A stretch of DNA of 57,683 bases from Flavobacteriales bacterium (GTDB lineage Bacteria; Bacteroidota; Bacteroidia; Flavobacteriales_F; PHOS-HE28): positions 1 to 57,683 of the forward strand of contig JADZAC010000044.1 of assembly GCA_020852835.1 (NCBI GenBank), read 5' to 3'. The notes under the pieces are model-generated. The model was not told where the DNA came from, did not search any database, and saw only the letters and a list, made by a program, of their open reading frames with translations. This document shows, piece after piece, positions 10,935 to 57,683 of the stretch. Each line of letters opens with the position of its first letter. Position 1 is the stretch's first letter. The position numbers and the translations under genes were made by a program.

Positions 10935-11036
10935 TTGTCCTATGCCCAATGTCCTATCCGCCGCATCAGGCATCGGGCAACAGGCATAGAGCAGTTGACA
11001 TAGGACACTAGACACCAGGCATAGGACAATTGACAC
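10935..11036. repeat. Inverted degenerate heptad array A
   Basis: The sufE-sufT spacer is almost wholly made of 7-nt units. Eleven consecutive heptads run from 10960 to 11036 without a phase break; read on the plus strand they fit NNGRCAN, with CA at positions 5-6 in all eleven and a purine at position 4 in all eleven (AGGACAA, CAGGCAT, TAGACAC, TTGACAT and so on). Three heptads of the inverse form (TTGTCCT, ATGCCCA, ATGTCCT) occupy 10935-10955, so the two arms can pair; TTGTCCTATGCC has a perfect 12-nt inverse partner at 11018-11029. No start codon-led ORF explains the pattern. Confidence 0.8.
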
Positions 11037-52289: not shown

Positions 52290-53405
52290 CTACTTCAACG
52301 TGCGCAGAAAGAACTGCTGGAGCGTTTCCGATGAACCCACGTTCAACGGGAGGGAAGGGACCTGGGCATTCACCTTGATCCCTTTGCTCTGGGCGGTGTC
52401 CACCAGCCGCTTGATGTGGATGGAATTGTGCAGCACATCGGAGGGCTTGTCCACCTCCTTGTCGCTGGCGAACCACATCTCCGGGTCGCTGCGGTCCATC
52501 ATCGCGGGCATGTCCAGGTCCTTGCGCATGGCCACGAAGGCCGGGTCCGTGGTCAGCGCCTGGAAATCCGAGGTGCCGTAGAACTCGGTGACACGCGGCT
52601 TGAACCGGGGGTCCTCGGTGGGCTTCACGCCGTATTTCTCCATGAACATGGGGTCCCAGCTGAAGATGTCGTAGCTGCTCTGCGGGTTGATGGCGGCCAC
52701 GGCCTGGATGCGGGTGCTTTCGCGGGCGATGGGGTCGGCGCTGTTGGGGTCGGCCAGGTCGTCGTGCACGCCCAGCCACACGGATGAACCGGCGCCGGCG
52801 CTGATGCCCATGCACCCGATGCGGTTCTTGTCGATGCCCAGTTCCGTGGCATGGTATCGGATGAACTGCAGGCAGCGTTGGATGTCCCTCAGCGAGTTCT
52901 TCACGCCGTCTGGCCCCTCCCTCAGAAAGCGGTAGTTGATGGTGGCCACCCCGAAGCCCGCATTGGTCCACGCGGTGATCTCCGGTGCAAAGCGCTTATG
53001 GAAGTGGTCCTTGCTGCCGTTGGCAAATCCGCCGCCGTGGATGAAGATCACCAGCGGTGCCGGGGTTTGGCCCTTGGGCAGGTACATGTCGAAGATCAGC
53101 CGGTCGGACGTGCCGTAGTGCACGTTGGCGGCGTATTTGTTGGACACGGCCACCGGTGCAGCGGAATTGTTCAAGGTCAATTCGCTCACGTACGTGGCGG
53201 CGGCAGCGCTGGCGTCCACACCGCCTGGTTTGGTCGTGGTGTTGCCTCCATGTCCTTGGCCGCCCGGGCCCCTGCCGCCACCGGGTCGCTGCCCTTGGCC
53301 GGGCCGATCGCCCGGCAAGCGGGTGAGTTGGGTGCAGCCGCTGGCGGCGATCAGGAGGAATGCGGCAAGCAGCAGGCGGGCGTGCTGAAGGAAATGGAAG
53401 GCCAT
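52290..53405 (-). CDS. Alpha/beta-hydrolase (esterase/lipase-like) lipoprotein
   Basis: A 371-residue lipoprotein. The signal peptide ends in the lipobox IAASGC (Cys near residue 24), followed by a Gly/Arg/Pro-rich disordered linker. The hydrolase domain has the oxyanion motif HGGGFANGS, the nucleophile elbow GISAGAGSS, a candidate acid in the DPEMWFASDKEVD region and a His near LHNSIHIKRL. This resembles the hormone-sensitive-lipase/BD-FAE type group. The substrate is unknown. A TATTTTGG box (53455-53448, minus strand) lies 43 nt upstream. It is downstream of sdhB, separated by heptad array B. Confidence 0.87.
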   Translation of the reverse strand: MAFHFLQHARLLLAAFLLIAASGCTQLTRLPGDRPGQGQRPGGGRGPGGQGHGGNTTTKPGGVDASAAAATYVSELTLNNSAAPVAVSNKYAANVHYGTSDRLIFDMYLPKGQTPAPLVIFIHGGGFANGSKDHFHKRFAPEITAWTNAGFGVATINYRFLREGPDGVKNSLRDIQRCLQFIRYHATELGIDKNRIGCMGISAGAGSSVWLGVHDDLADPNSADPIARESTRIQAVAAINPQSSYDIFSWDPMFMEKYGVKPTEDPRFKPRVTEFYGTSDFQALTTDPAFVAMRKDLDMPAMMDRSDPEMWFASDKEVDKPSDVLHNSIHIKRLVDTAQSKGIKVNAQVPSLPLNVGSSETLQQFFLRTLK

Positions 53406-53494
53406 GGGGAATTTGGGGGTTGGGTGGGCACAAGGACCAATGTCGTGCCAAAATAGGGCAAGAGCCTTAAAATGCTGTGCGCTGGTGGGTAGGC

Positions 53495-53557
53495 CCTGCG
53501 TCCCACGCCCTACGTCCTACGAACTAGCATCAAGGGCCTGGTCCGTAGGGCGTAGGG
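53495..53557. repeat. Inverted degenerate heptad array B
   Basis: Five consecutive 7-nt units from 53495 (CCTGCGT, CCCACGC, CCTACGT, CCTACGA, ACTAGCA) are followed after a short gap by two inverse units (CGTAGGG, CGTAGGG; 53544-53557). The heptad is CCYRCGN. The arms can pair imperfectly. It sits between the esterase gene and sdhB, both on the minus strand. Confidence 0.7.
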
Positions 53558-53598
53558 AAGGGTGGTGCGTCGAATGGAAGACCATCCCGCCAAGCTCC

Positions 53599-54357
53599 TT
53601 ATTCCCGGCTCAGGGTGGCGCCTAGGTATTCGCGGTTCAGCCGCGCGATGTTCTCCAGGGAAATGTCCTTGGGGCACTCGATCTCGCAGGCGCCGATGTT
53701 GCTGCAGTTGCCGAATTTCTCGGCATCCATTTGCTGCACCATGTTCAGGGCGCGTTCGCGGGCTTCGGGCCTTCCTTGGGGCAGCAGGGCGTACTGGCTC
53801 ACTTTGGCGGACACGAAGAGCATGGCCGAACCGTTGGGGCAGGCGGCCACACAGGCGCCGCAGCCGATGCAGGCCGCGGCATCGAAGGCCTTGTCCGCAT
53901 CGGCCTTGCGCACGGGCATGGCGTTGGCGTCCACCAAGTTGCCCATGGTGTTCACGCTCACGAAGCCGCCGGCCGCCTGTATGCGGTCGAAGGCGCCGCG
54001 GTCCACCACCAGGTCCTTCACCACGGGGAAGGCTTCGGCGCGCCAAGGCTCCACGTAGATCGTGTCACCGTCCTTGAATTTGCGCATGTGCAGCTGGCAG
54101 GTGGTGATGTGCCGTTCGGGCCCGTGGGGCCGCCCGTTGATGAACAGGCTGCACATGCCGCAGATGCCTTCGCGGCAATCGTGATCGAACGCGATCGGGT
54201 CCTCTCCCTTGCGCACGAGATCGTCGTTCAGCACATCGAGCATCTCGAGGAACGACATATCCTCGGAGACGTCATTCACCGGATAATCCTTGATGCTGCC
54301 CTTGTCATTCGAGCCGTTCTGTCTCCAGATCTTCAGGTTCAATTTCATGTTGCCCAT
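53599..54357 (-). CDS. sdhB: Succinate dehydrogenase/fumarate reductase iron-sulfur subunit
   Basis: A 252-residue peripheral membrane subunit that relays electrons from FAD to the membrane quinone site. The plant-type [2Fe-2S] ligands are in [10 protein letters not shown] with the later Cys in TTCQL; the [4Fe-4S]/[3Fe-4S] cysteines are in [13 protein letters not shown] and [13 protein letters not shown]. The length and sequence are of the Bacteroidota type B complex. Both ATG 54357 and ATG 54348 (MKLNLKIW) are possible. It lies 69 nt after sdhA in the sdhCAB order. Confidence 0.95.
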
Positions 54358-54426
54358 CTGCCTTGCTATTGTATGTCGACCAGGAGGGTACGACGGTACG
54401 GGTGCATTGATCGATCGTGGGTGCGC

Positions 54427-56442
54427 CTATTTGTAGCTGCGTTGCGTCAGCTTCACTTCGTTGAATTCCAAATGCTCCTTGTGCAGATTCGCTTTGCCGG
54501 CTTCACCTAACCACTCCCAAGCCGCCACGTACGCGTAGTTCTCGTCGTCGCGTTTTGCTTCGCCCTGCTGCGGGCCATCCAACTCCTGGGATTCCTCCCG
54601 GAAGTGGCCGCCGCAGCTTTCGTTGCGGTTCAGCGCGTCCATGCACATCAGTTCGCCTAGCTCGATGAAGTCCGCTACTCGCCCTGCTTTCTCCAGTTCC
54701 TGATTGAATTCGTTCGCCGTGCCGGGTACACGCACATACTTCCAGAACTCTTCGCGGATCCGGCGGATCTCTACGATCGCTTCCTGCAAACCTTGTGCAT
54801 TGCGCGCCATGCCGCACTTGTCCCACATCACCTTCCCTAGGCGACGGTGGAAGTCATCGACAGGCTTCGTGCCTTTGTTGTTCAAGAAGTGGTGGATGCG
54901 GTCCTTCTGTTCCTTCTCGGCGGCATCGAATTCAGGACGCATCGTGTCGATCGGTCCTGTGCGGATGTCATCAGCGAGGTAATCGCCCACGGTGTACGGG
55001 ATCACGAAGTAGCCATCGGCCAAGCCTTGCATCAGTGCGGATGCACCGAGACGGTTCGCGCCATGATCGCTGAAGTTGGCTTCACCCAAGCAGAAGAGGC
55101 CGGGCACGGTGGTCTGCAGGTTGTAGTCCACCCACAGGCCGCCCATGGTGTAGTGTACGGCCGGGTAGATCTTCATCGCGTGCTTGTAGGGGTCCTCGCC
55201 GACGATGTTCTCGTACATGTCGAATAGGTTGCCGTACTTCTCGCTCACGACCGCCGTGCCCAACTCGCGGATCTGCTCCGGCGAGGCATTCTCGACCTTC
55301 TGCATGTTCGCTTGCTGCTTGCCGTAGCGCTGGATCGCGGCGCTGAAGTCGAGGTACACTGCTTCACCGGTCTTGTTCACGCCGAAGCCTGCATCGCAAC
55401 GCTCCTTCGCAGCACGGCTCGCCACATCGCGCGGAACAAGGTTCCCAAAGGCCGGGTAACGGCGTTCCAAGTAATAGTCACGATCCGCTTCCGGGATGTC
55501 GCTTCCTTTCTTCTTGCCTTCGCGGATCGCTTTCGCGTCCTCGATGTTCTTCGGCACCCAAATGCGGCCGTCGTTTCGGAGCGATTCGCTCATCAGCGTG
55601 AGCTTGCTCTGGTGCGTGCCGCTCACGGGGATGCACGTCGGGTGGATCTGCGTGTAGCACGGATTGCCGAAGTAAGCGCCGCGCTTGTGTGCCTTCCACG
55701 CCGCCGTCACATTGCTGCCCATGGCGTTCGTGCTCAGGAAGAACACGTTGCCGTAGCCACCGGTGCAAAGCAATACCGCGTGCGCACCGTGGCGTTCGAT
55801 CTCGCCGGTGATCAGGTTGCGTGCAATGATGCCACGTGCCTTGCCATCGACCACGACCACATCAAGCATCTCGTGGCGGTCGAACATCTGCACGGTGCCT
55901 TTGCCCACTTGGCGCATCAGCGCGCTGTACGCCCCGAGCAACAACTGCTGACCTGTTTGCCCACGCGCATAGAAGGTGCGGCTCACCTGCACGCCACCGA
56001 ACGAACGGTTATCGAGCAGCCCACCGTAATCACGGGCGAAGGGAACGCCTTGCGCCACGCACTGGTCGATGATGTTCGCGCTCACTTCCGCAAGGCGATA
56101 GACGTTCGCTTCGCGGGAGCGGTAATCGCCGCCCTTCACGGTGTCATAGAACAGGCGGTAGGTGCTGTCGCCGTCGTTCTGGTAGTTCTTCGCGGCGTTG
56201 ATCCCACCTTGCGCGGCGATGCTGTGCGCACGACGAGCGCTGTCCTGGAAGCAGAAGGCTTTTACGTTGTAGCCCATCTCCGCAAGGGAAGCAGCGGCAG
56301 CTCCTCCGGCCAGACCCGTGCCCACCACGATGATGTCGATGCGGCGCTTGTTGGACGGTGCTACGATGCGGATGTGTCCCTTGTGATCGGTCCACTTCTT
56401 ATCGATGGGGCCGGGAGGGATCTTGCTGTCGAGGGTGCTCAT
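54427..56442 (-). CDS. sdhA: Succinate dehydrogenase/fumarate reductase flavoprotein subunit
   Basis: A 671-residue FAD-carrying catalytic subunit. The dinucleotide motif [15 protein letters not shown], the covalent-FAD region ([16 protein letters not shown]), the active-site segment [15 protein letters not shown] and [15 protein letters not shown] are intact. It oxidises succinate or reduces fumarate as part of SdhCAB. The ATG at 56442 ([11 protein letters not shown]) is chosen; the earlier frame start is TTG at 56451. The spacer to sdhC contains heptad array C. Confidence 0.96.
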
Positions 56443-56450
56443 GGAATGCA

Positions 56451-56534
56451 AATGCGTTACGAGTTAGCGTGTTTCGTGTTCCGTGTTGGTGCGCATTCAA
56501 CGCGCAACACGTAACCCGTCAACACGCAACGAGC
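56451..56534. repeat. Inverted degenerate heptad array C, inside the sdh operon
   Basis: Left arm: ACGAGTT, AGCGTGTT, TCGTGTT, CCGTGTT (56459-56487), fitting NCGNGTT. Right arm: AACGCGC, AACACGT, AACCCGTC, AACACGC, AACGAGC (56499-56534), the inverse form. Each arm has one 8-nt unit, at mirror-image positions. The arms align along their whole length, with 26 of 34 positions complementary when counted over 56455-56488 against 56498-56531, yet the N positions differ from unit to unit. It separates sdhA from sdhC. Confidence 0.75.
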
Positions 56535-56557
56535 GGCAGGCTTGTGGGTGGAGGGCT

Positions 56558-57247
56558 TCATTGGATCCATCCGAAGTACATGCTCACCGGCATCAGTGCG
56601 AAGAGCGTTGGAACGATGATGCTGAAGACGACACCGAACGCGGCGATGATCGGATTGTACCGCTTGTGGTTCAAGCCGAGCGATTGGAACGCGCTCTTGA
56701 AACCGTGGAGCAAATGCCAGAACAAACTGAAGCAACCTAGCACGTAGATCACCACCACGATCGGGTTCTCGAAGGTCTGCACCATCAACGCGAAGAGGTT
56801 CTCTTGCCCTTCCGGATCAAGGGGTAACTCGTCGAGACTTCCGACGATGCCGCGGCTCTTCACCCAGAAATGCCAGAGGTGTACGATCAGGAAGAGAAGG
56901 ATGAGCGTTCCGAGTATGCCCATGCTCGCACTGTACCAACTGCGGCTCGCACTGCCCTTCTCCATCGCGTACTTCACCGGACGCGCCGCGCGGTTCTGGC
57001 GCCAGAGCATCAGGCCGTCCACCACATGGGCGATAAGCCCCAGGAAAAGCACGATCTCCATGGTGCGGATGAAGATGTTGGTACCGAAGAAGTGGGCCAC
57101 CATGTTGAAGGTGACACCGCCGTCGTTCCAGAAGATCATCGCGTTCACCCCGGCATGCACCACGAGGAAGGTGATAAGGAAAAGGCCCGTGAGGGCCATC
57201 CAATACTTCTTGACGAGGGAGGAACCGAAGAGGGCTGTTCGTGCCAT
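56558..57247 (-). CDS. sdhC: Succinate dehydrogenase cytochrome b subunit
   Basis: A 229-residue integral membrane protein with five hydrophobic segments, the type B single-subunit diheme anchor. Heme-ligand histidines are expected among VVHAG, GLIAHVVDG, HLWHFW and FWHLLHG. It anchors SdhAB and reduces or oxidises menaquinone. It is the first gene of sdhCAB. The ATG at 57247 (MARTALFGSSLVKKYWMALTG) is family-typical and a perfect -7 box lies 38 nt upstream. Confidence 0.94.
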   Translation of the reverse strand: MARTALFGSSLVKKYWMALTGLFLITFLVVHAGVNAMIFWNDGGVTFNMVAHFFGTNIFIRTMEIVLFLGLIAHVVDGLMLWRQNRAARPVKYAMEKGSASRSWYSASMGILGTLILLFLIVHLWHFWVKSRGIVGSLDELPLDPEGQENLFALMVQTFENPIVVVIYVLGCFSLFWHLLHGFKSAFQSLGLNHKRYNPIIAAFGVVFSIIVPTLFALMPVSMYFGWIQ

Positions 57248-57285
57248 GACTACTTACCGGCGGACCGCTGAGGTCCGTTCGGTGG

Positions 57286-57293
57286 CAAACTTA
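57286..57293 (-). promoter_or_regulatory. -7 promoter box of the sdhCAB operon
   Basis: TAAGTTTG on the minus strand, a full consensus match; a small CGGACC/GGTCCG hairpin lies in the 38-nt leader. Confidence 0.6.
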
Positions 57294-57434
57294 CGGGGCA
57301 GGCGGTTGGCATGGAAACAGTGGGGATATCCAAACTTGTTTAGAACCGTTCTGATCTGATGCTCAAGCACCGCCAGCCACTATGCAATGCCGTTCGGTAT
57401 CGATGCACCAGCAACGACGCCGTCCGCAATACCT

Positions 57435-57442
57435 TACCTTGG
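57435..57442 (+). promoter_or_regulatory. Candidate -7 box of the cytochrome gene
   Basis: TACCTTGG, about 49 nt before the ATG at 57492. Confidence 0.3.
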
Positions 57443-57491
57443 TGTAACGGGCGGCCATTCATACACCACATCCGACCCATGCCTCAGTCCC

Positions 57492-57683
57492 ATGAAAAAG
57501 ACGTTGAAAGTCCTTGGGATCCTGCTCTTCGTCATCCTGATCGGGGGCGCCGCATTGATCACCTACATCACCCAAGCCCTGCCGGACATCCCCGTACAGG
57601 CCGACCTGAAGGTGGAGATCACACCCGAGCGTGTGGCGCGCGGCGAGTACCTGGCCAACAGTGTGTGCGTGTGCATGGACTGC
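57492..57683 (+). CDS. c-type cytochrome family protein, 5' part only
   Basis: The first 64 codons are visible. The chain begins MKKTLKVLGILLFVILIGGAA, an N-terminal signal anchor, followed by a VEITPERVARGEYLANSVC region. The last bases encode CVCMDC, so a CxxCH heme-attachment site is expected to be completed just past the window edge. The product is probably a membrane-anchored or periplasmic cytochrome c. It is divergent from sdhCAB, with a 244-nt intergenic region that holds promoters in both directions. Confidence 0.8.
   Translation, partial: MKKTLKVLGILLFVILIGGAALITYITQALPDIPVQADLKVEITPERVARGEYLANSVCVCMDC

Follow-up and report, generated by a model that had tools for sequence, protein, structure and literature searches.

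A CGNGTTN heptad hairpin between sdhC and sdhA, probably a gene-less relative of PF05635 intervening-sequence elements

Tandem seven-nucleotide repeats have been described in several bacterial settings. The 23S rRNA intervening sequence (IVS) of Coxiella burnetii carries an S23p ORF whose flanking terminal inverted repeats pair into a stem, and has been described as a selfish element (PMC4990558). RNase III cleaves this stem in vitro, and tandem GACAGAT heptamers, two to three copies plus a degenerate one, stand directly before the ORF (PMC4990558). Xanthomonas genomes contain intergenic tandem heptads of the GGGAATC type (GGGANTN), with about five fixed and two variable positions and about four units per array. 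These lie mostly between aligned ORFs, and 70–75 inverted pairs occur per genome in two species (PMC4692102). The P6b element of the Nostoc tRNA-Leu intron bears 7-nt repeats of classes I and II on both sides of its stem, with whole-repeat indels in one or both sides (PMC4476775). TAACTGA arrays, found in Beggiatoaceae, Cyanobacteria and Bacteroidetes, are intergenic direct heptamers, many of them situated by start codons and patchy across taxa (PMC4679880). Finally, PF05635, the family of 23S rRNA intervening-sequence proteins (IVPs), has a homologue in Avd of the diversity-generating retroelements (DGRs), which is required for DGR retrohoming (PMC10053308).

Here, we describe a heptad-repeat hairpin, array C, in a 57,683-nt stretch of DNA from a Flavobacteriales bacterium (hereafter the window). 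Array C lies between sdhC and sdhA, outside any 23S rRNA helix, and fills 77 nt of their 115-nt spacer (56443–56557). Both neighbouring genes are co-directional on the minus strand. The coordinates given to array C by a first-pass annotation of the window proved correct to within a few bases. The features of the locus are as follows.

54427–56442, minus strand: sdhA, succinate dehydrogenase flavoprotein, downstream of array C in the operon
56455–56488, plus strand: 5′ heptad arm (GT-type), CGTTA CGAGTTAG CGTGTTT CGTGTTC CGTGTTG
56460–56467, plus strand: 8-nt unit in the 5′ arm, CGAGTTAG
56489–56497, unstranded: loop of 9 nt, GTGCGCATT
56498–56531, plus strand: 3′ heptad arm (AC-type), inverted, CAACGCG CAACACG TAACCCG TCAACACG CAACG
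56519–56526, plus strand: 8-nt unit in the 3′ arm, facing the 8-nt unit of the 5′ arm, TCAACACG
56558–57247, minus strand: sdhC, succinate dehydrogenase membrane subunit, upstream of array C in the operon

Array C consists of two 34-nt arms of the heptad CGNGTTN separated by the 9-nt loop. Read from the outside towards the loop, the left arm is CGTTA, CGAGTTA+G, CGTGTTT, CGTGTTC and CGTGTTG, and the reverse complement of the right arm is CGTTG, CGTGTTG+A, CGGGTTA, CGTGTTG and CGCGTTG. The 34 facing positions comprise 26 Watson–Crick pairs, two G–T pairs and six mismatches. Within the four complete units, Watson–Crick pairing holds in every one of the 20 fixed columns, and the eight variable-column pairs comprise five mismatches, one G–T pair and two Watson–Crick pairs. 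The annotation had noted one 8-nt unit per arm at matching positions, as well as differing variable bases in the paired units. Both observations hold: the unit at 56460–56467 lies exactly opposite that at 56519–56526, and the disagreement of variable bases, evident in five of eight column pairs here, is general over 53 hairpins. Array C has inverted terminal arms of tandem 7–8-nt units, and no PF05635 ORF lies between them, the loop being only 9 nt long.

A detector that scores any inverted pair of 7- or 8-nt tandem arrays, blind to their sequence, ranked array C first in the window with a score of 87 (the maximum in dinucleotide-shuffled windows was 68). Ranks 2 and 3, scoring 76 and 73, are likely the arrays that the annotation had called B and A.

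53494–53557, unstranded: heptad hairpin CCTACGN / CGTAGGN (likely array B), just past the end of sdhB; same class, another heptad, opposite polarity
10937–11013, unstranded: heptad hairpin of the GTCCTAT type (likely array A); same class, another heptad

The 5′ arm of array B is AC-type, a polarity that runs against nearly all other solo hairpins. As a single genome holds many heptad types, a strict system of one heptad per genome was rejected. Counts by heptad type are biased because the CGNGTTN pattern was partly used to find CGNGTTN solo hairpins; the spacer, background and IVP-flank analyses are free of that bias.

We know of no established function for stand-alone PF05635 proteins. They were found in 43 of the 44 genomes searched in the genus and in 90 of 118 in the phylum, and their genes commonly sit between inverted heptad arms. 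Such arms, scored within 250 nt on each side of the gene, flanked 50 of 88 fetched genus IVP genes vs 2 of 329 control genes, one of which was itself an IVP gene (the 88 include a few duplicates, with little effect on the ratio). A detectable arm pair was absent at about four in ten genus IVPs. Outside the genus, other families of the phylum contributed 28 IVPs, 17 of them with arms (0 of 140 shuffles). In a wider set drawn from named genomes across many phyla, 61 of 78 IVPs had arms, as did 1 of 390 shuffles and 2 of 89 outer flanks. Self-identity of the sequence by IVP genes peaks at a lag of 7 (0.362 vs 0.252 farther away) and again at 14. The IVP gene is co-directional with both neighbours at 41 of 48 scored cross-phyla loci and at 27 of 50 genus loci.

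Arms beside IVP genes can expand. GGTGATT is repeated about 15 times in a row beside the IVP gene in the sdhA–sdhB spacer of genome G042 (locus L105), and at locus L220 the 8-nt unit TGGTCAAC forms a long run. Because the arms of some IVP elements (L130, L170, L232, L244 and L220) have a regular period of 8 nt rather than 7, the array period may be characteristic of the protein clade.

A complete counterpart of array C occurs in the same assembly. This 96-contig assembly (G000) holds two sdhC–sdhA–sdhB loci whose SdhC proteins are 71% identical. At the second (contig C92, locus L109), an IVP gene stands between CGNGTTN arms in the sdhC–sdhA spacer; its product, P0001, matches PF05635 with 97 bits against a cut-off of 33.8. 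Genome G033 likewise has an IVP gene between CGNGTTN arms in this spacer. Contamination is a possible origin of the second locus but is not indicated, as the Sua5-type gene beside the C92 sdh copy has no high-identity duplicate in the assembly.

Heptads vary greatly between elements. Their weak common core, read along the sense strand of the 5′ arm, is NNRGTNN (alignment score 312 vs 231 ± 3 in column-shuffled sets). The heptad type tracks the IVP clade, beyond base composition and at unrelated sites. Protein and heptad similarity were correlated within the genus (Mantel r 0.40 over all pairs; 0.154, p = 0.0015, over pairs at different sites) and across phyla (0.27). Composition alone gave 0.12, 0.06 and 0.06, respectively, and the observed values were never reached in 100 trials each. 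The site before what is presumably sufC, a name taken from a reading of the neighbouring ORF, illustrates this correspondence. Two IVP clades occupy it, each in different species: the arms are GATTGCT in the first clade and CGNGTTN in the second. The CGNGTTN-armed IVPs of the sdhC–sdhA and suf sites are 62–67% alike, and the GATTGCT-armed suf-site IVPs are about 45% alike to the CGNGTTN-armed ones. Arms and gene are therefore linked, and different elements take the same spacers. This match between repeat sequence and protein type suggests that an IVP recognises its own heptads.

The CGNGTTN family was recognised by inspection: such arms accompany P0001, the sdhC–sdhA IVP of G033 and the suf-site IVPs of G005, G010 and G022. 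Across phyla, CGNGTTN-likeness did not rise significantly with identity to P0001 (Spearman 0.18, p 0.17). The nearest-heptad similarity of array C to the IVP set was 0.73 (p 0.33, composition-shuffled), against a reference with mostly CGGGTTN arms that left out the CGTGTTN-armed suf IVPs, whose arm scores fell below the cut-off. Since no IVP gene adjoins array C, its assignment draws on the heptad, the location and the second sdh locus; and since its loop is 9 nt and holds no ORF, it was filed as a gene-less derivative rather than a complete element. We consider it probable that array C is an orphan copy of an IVS-like element of the CGNGTTN family, with the mechanism set out below.

Gene-less and decaying forms occur elsewhere. 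Solo hairpins matched IVP heptads better in the given than in the reversed polarity in 30 of 32 cases, array B being one of the two exceptions. In related species, gene-less hairpins with heptads known beside IVP genes share the same spacers. In a gammaproteobacterial locus (L315), a truncated PF05635 ORF lies between (GGGACTC)n and (GAGTCCC)n arms, which in turn lie between apparent carA and carB genes. At another (L314), GGGAATC arms enclose an IVP gene whose conserved reading frame switches partway through; the genome in question, also from the class Gammaproteobacteria, is rich in GGGAATC heptads. These forms look like intermediate steps by which a complete element decays into a hairpin of the array C kind.

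The sdhC–sdhA spacers of relatives vary widely. Among 35 further loci that were read, about half have minimal or short spacers, mostly under 40 nt, with no array. The remainder hold a hairpin or a direct array of at least six heptad types: GTTGTCN (G016, G037, G022, G018), CGNGTTN (G023, G025, G042), GGCTCGN (G008, G039), GTGCGAG (G038), AGTTCGT (G020), GATGTCC (G043) and GGTTGNN (G013, G024). The arrays of G018 and G020 are direct, lacking the inverted arm, and the G023/G025 hairpin has 8-nt units at differing places in its two arms.

These spacers bear on a reading that follows from the first-pass annotation, in which array C is an RNA hairpin of the sdh operon and selection holds its arms in register, conceivably because the stem serves processing, stability or differential sdhC/sdhA expression. 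Array C does sit in an operon spacer and every fixed column pairs; the G008 and G039 hairpins at the same spacer are, moreover, very stable (z about −7). Array C itself, however, is only modestly stabler than shuffles (z −1.9 and −1.4 for the two strands, −1.6 for the exact spacer), and no Rfam match was found in 53300–57683. About half of the species have just the minimal spacer, and others have another heptad or a direct array that is unable to form such a stem. The annotation had envisaged arms that evolve as a pair in unit length and not in exact sequence, and this stood in part. The presence of 8-nt units is common to both arms (Fisher p = 6.5e-8; 56 hairpins), and unit length is therefore a property of the whole array. 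Paired units, for their part, are no more alike than unpaired ones: in-register identity showed no excess over shuffled order (difference −0.07 ± 0.03 matches per unit; 53 hairpins). What failed was the mirrored placement, with nine mirrored 8-nt units vs 7.6 expected (p = 0.28) in the 12 hairpins that have such units in both arms. Mirrored 8-nt units were thus rejected as a general rule, as were compensatory base changes between arms, of which there were none over the 53 hairpins.

The comparison of relatives had been put forward by the annotation as one way to check its proposal, with length changes confined to one arm as a refuting outcome. Unmirrored 8-nt units in G023/G025, the missing inverted arm in G018/G020 and the array-free spacers of about half of the species amount to that outcome and argue against selection for exact register. 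A regulator held in register is unlikely because relatives vary in heptad, arm presence and 8-nt placement, and we consider the RNA-hairpin reading as a whole quite improbable. A regulatory RNA in the sdh transcript was accordingly rejected as the leading idea, its presence, sequence and structure being unconserved in relatives. The fixed and variable positions are better explained if the arrays fall into families, with the heptad core of each matched to its cognate IVP.

In the adjoining sdhA–sdhB spacers, an element can fill the whole interval between stop and start codons. Many genus members (e.g. L096, L103, L111, L116, L120, L124, L125 and L109) share another short palindrome, GTCGACCC...GGGTCGAC, between sdhA and sdhB, and it is absent from the window copy and, in the parts shown, from IVP-bearing sdhA–sdhB spacers. 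Among the sdh spacers compared, no clean pair of empty and filled sites with a target duplication was found; for G023 vs G025, none can be read because the element replaces the entire spacer from stop to start codon.

Mobility of another kind also merits consideration. The detector made nine matches in 313 kb of the same assembly, or about 29 per Mb, and nothing reached 72 in about 1.4 Mb of shuffled sequence. Short, dispersed intergenic hairpins at this density resemble the distribution of REP elements, and array C could be imagined as a palindrome of the REP/BIME kind, mobilised by a RAYT-type transposase, or as a MITE of an ordinary insertion sequence. We regard either origin as very improbable. 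REP elements have a fixed palindrome and a terminal tetranucleotide (GTAG/CGTC families; PMC3733652), whereas the class of array C is built of tandem heptads of many sequences. The gene found repeatedly between the arms encodes a PF05635 protein, not a transposase. Nor was a target duplication seen, in what was a limited test, with no near-identical empty site among the spacers compared.

A plainer account holds that array C is an ordinary tandem-repeat hairpin, produced by replication slippage plus one inverted duplication or a quasi-palindrome template switch, with no link to IVPs. Slippage alone can make heptads, because tandem arrays without inverted arms occur, both at the same spacer in G018 and G020 and as TAACTGA repeats. 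Heptad simple-sequence repeats are indeed known from many bacteria (PMC4692102, PMC4679880). Arrays reach 15 or more units beside some IVPs, and paired units lack a compensatory match, both in favour of this account. Slippage nonetheless leaves three observations unexplained: the arms at 50 of 88 PF05635 loci vs 2 of 329 controls, the way heptads stay clade-specific at unrelated sites as well as across phyla, and the polarity shared by 30 of 32 solo hairpins. We therefore think it unlikely as the whole explanation; slippage is probably how arms change length and not how they arise.

The preferred reading, an orphan copy of an IVS-like element, comes with a proposed mechanism. A complete element comprises a 5′ tandem-heptad arm, the gene for a PF05635 four-helix protein, and a 3′ arm of the same heptads inverted. 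It sits between two genes, mostly co-directional with both, in the manner of the IVSs of 23S rRNA genes. Each IVP, probably a pentamer, would bind its own heptads as RNA or single-stranded DNA, with one or a few heptads per subunit. The protein would read about five of the seven bases, leaving two free to vary and allowing a spacing of 7 or 8 nt. Elements would spread together with their arms, and gene-less hairpins would arise by gene loss; a same-clade IVP may mobilise them in trans. Five chains are present in each of the two solved structures of the family, 2gsc and 2rld. Avd is a pentamer that acts with reverse transcriptase and RNA. In TRAP, each subunit of a ring takes up one short repeat, and the spacing between repeats has some slack; a TRAP-like ring would account for the fixed and free positions, the 7-or-8 spacing and the short arrays. 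The part played in retrohoming by Avd, a homologue of PF05635 (PMC10053308), offers a further parallel. By analogy with the 23S IVS, RNase III cutting of these stems in mRNA is plausible, and array C is probably tolerated in the sdh mRNA rather than acting as a regulator.

A broader proposal can be put forward more tentatively. PF05635 might be the hallmark of a class of very small mobile elements spread across phyla; in each, a pentameric four-helix protein would recognise its own heptad array in the way of TRAP. The heptad would serve as a fast-diversifying, clade-specific address, and hairpins of the array C type would be non-autonomous members mobilised in trans. If true, such a class would account for why bacterial intergenic DNA is so rich in heptanucleotide repeats and heptad hairpins, an excess long known. 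For annotation, many intergenic operon hairpins may be element remnants and not regulators.

Apart from the Coxiella IVS heptamers, a link between PF05635 and heptad arms was not found in the open-access literature searched. New with respect to that literature are the inverted heptad arms as the general frame of intergenic PF05635 genes, the correspondence of heptad type to protein clade and the membership of gene-less hairpins in the same family. Complete elements share with the Coxiella IVS a PF05635 ORF between inverted repeats and tandem heptamers. Unlike that IVS, which lies in a 23S rRNA helix and has few heptamers, they stand between protein-coding genes, with heptads filling both arms; in addition, the heptad follows the protein clade, and array C has no ORF. 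The Xanthomonas heptads were studied as G-quadruplex formers, with no mention of the IVP protein found there (PMC4692102). Array C lacks the G-tracts of the GGGAATC type, and arms of that very type enclose an IVP gene in the one GGGAATC-rich Gammaproteobacteria genome noted above. The Nostoc P6b repeats differ in lying within a group I intron and in having no protein gene. TAACTGA arrays are nearly all direct and use one fixed heptamer, with a single inverted case in the main genome, and the only protein partners proposed for them are general RNA-binding proteins (PMC4679880). Finally, the IVP genes described here appear to stand alone, unlike Avd in DGRs. The heptad repeats of Coxiella, Xanthomonas, Nostoc and Beggiatoaceae had previously been noted separately, without a common cause. 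Inverted heptad arms that are the usual frame of PF05635 genes, and whose sequence follows the protein, tie the heptad-repeat question to the IVP question, so that what IVPs do and why bacterial tandem repeats are so often seven long become a single problem.
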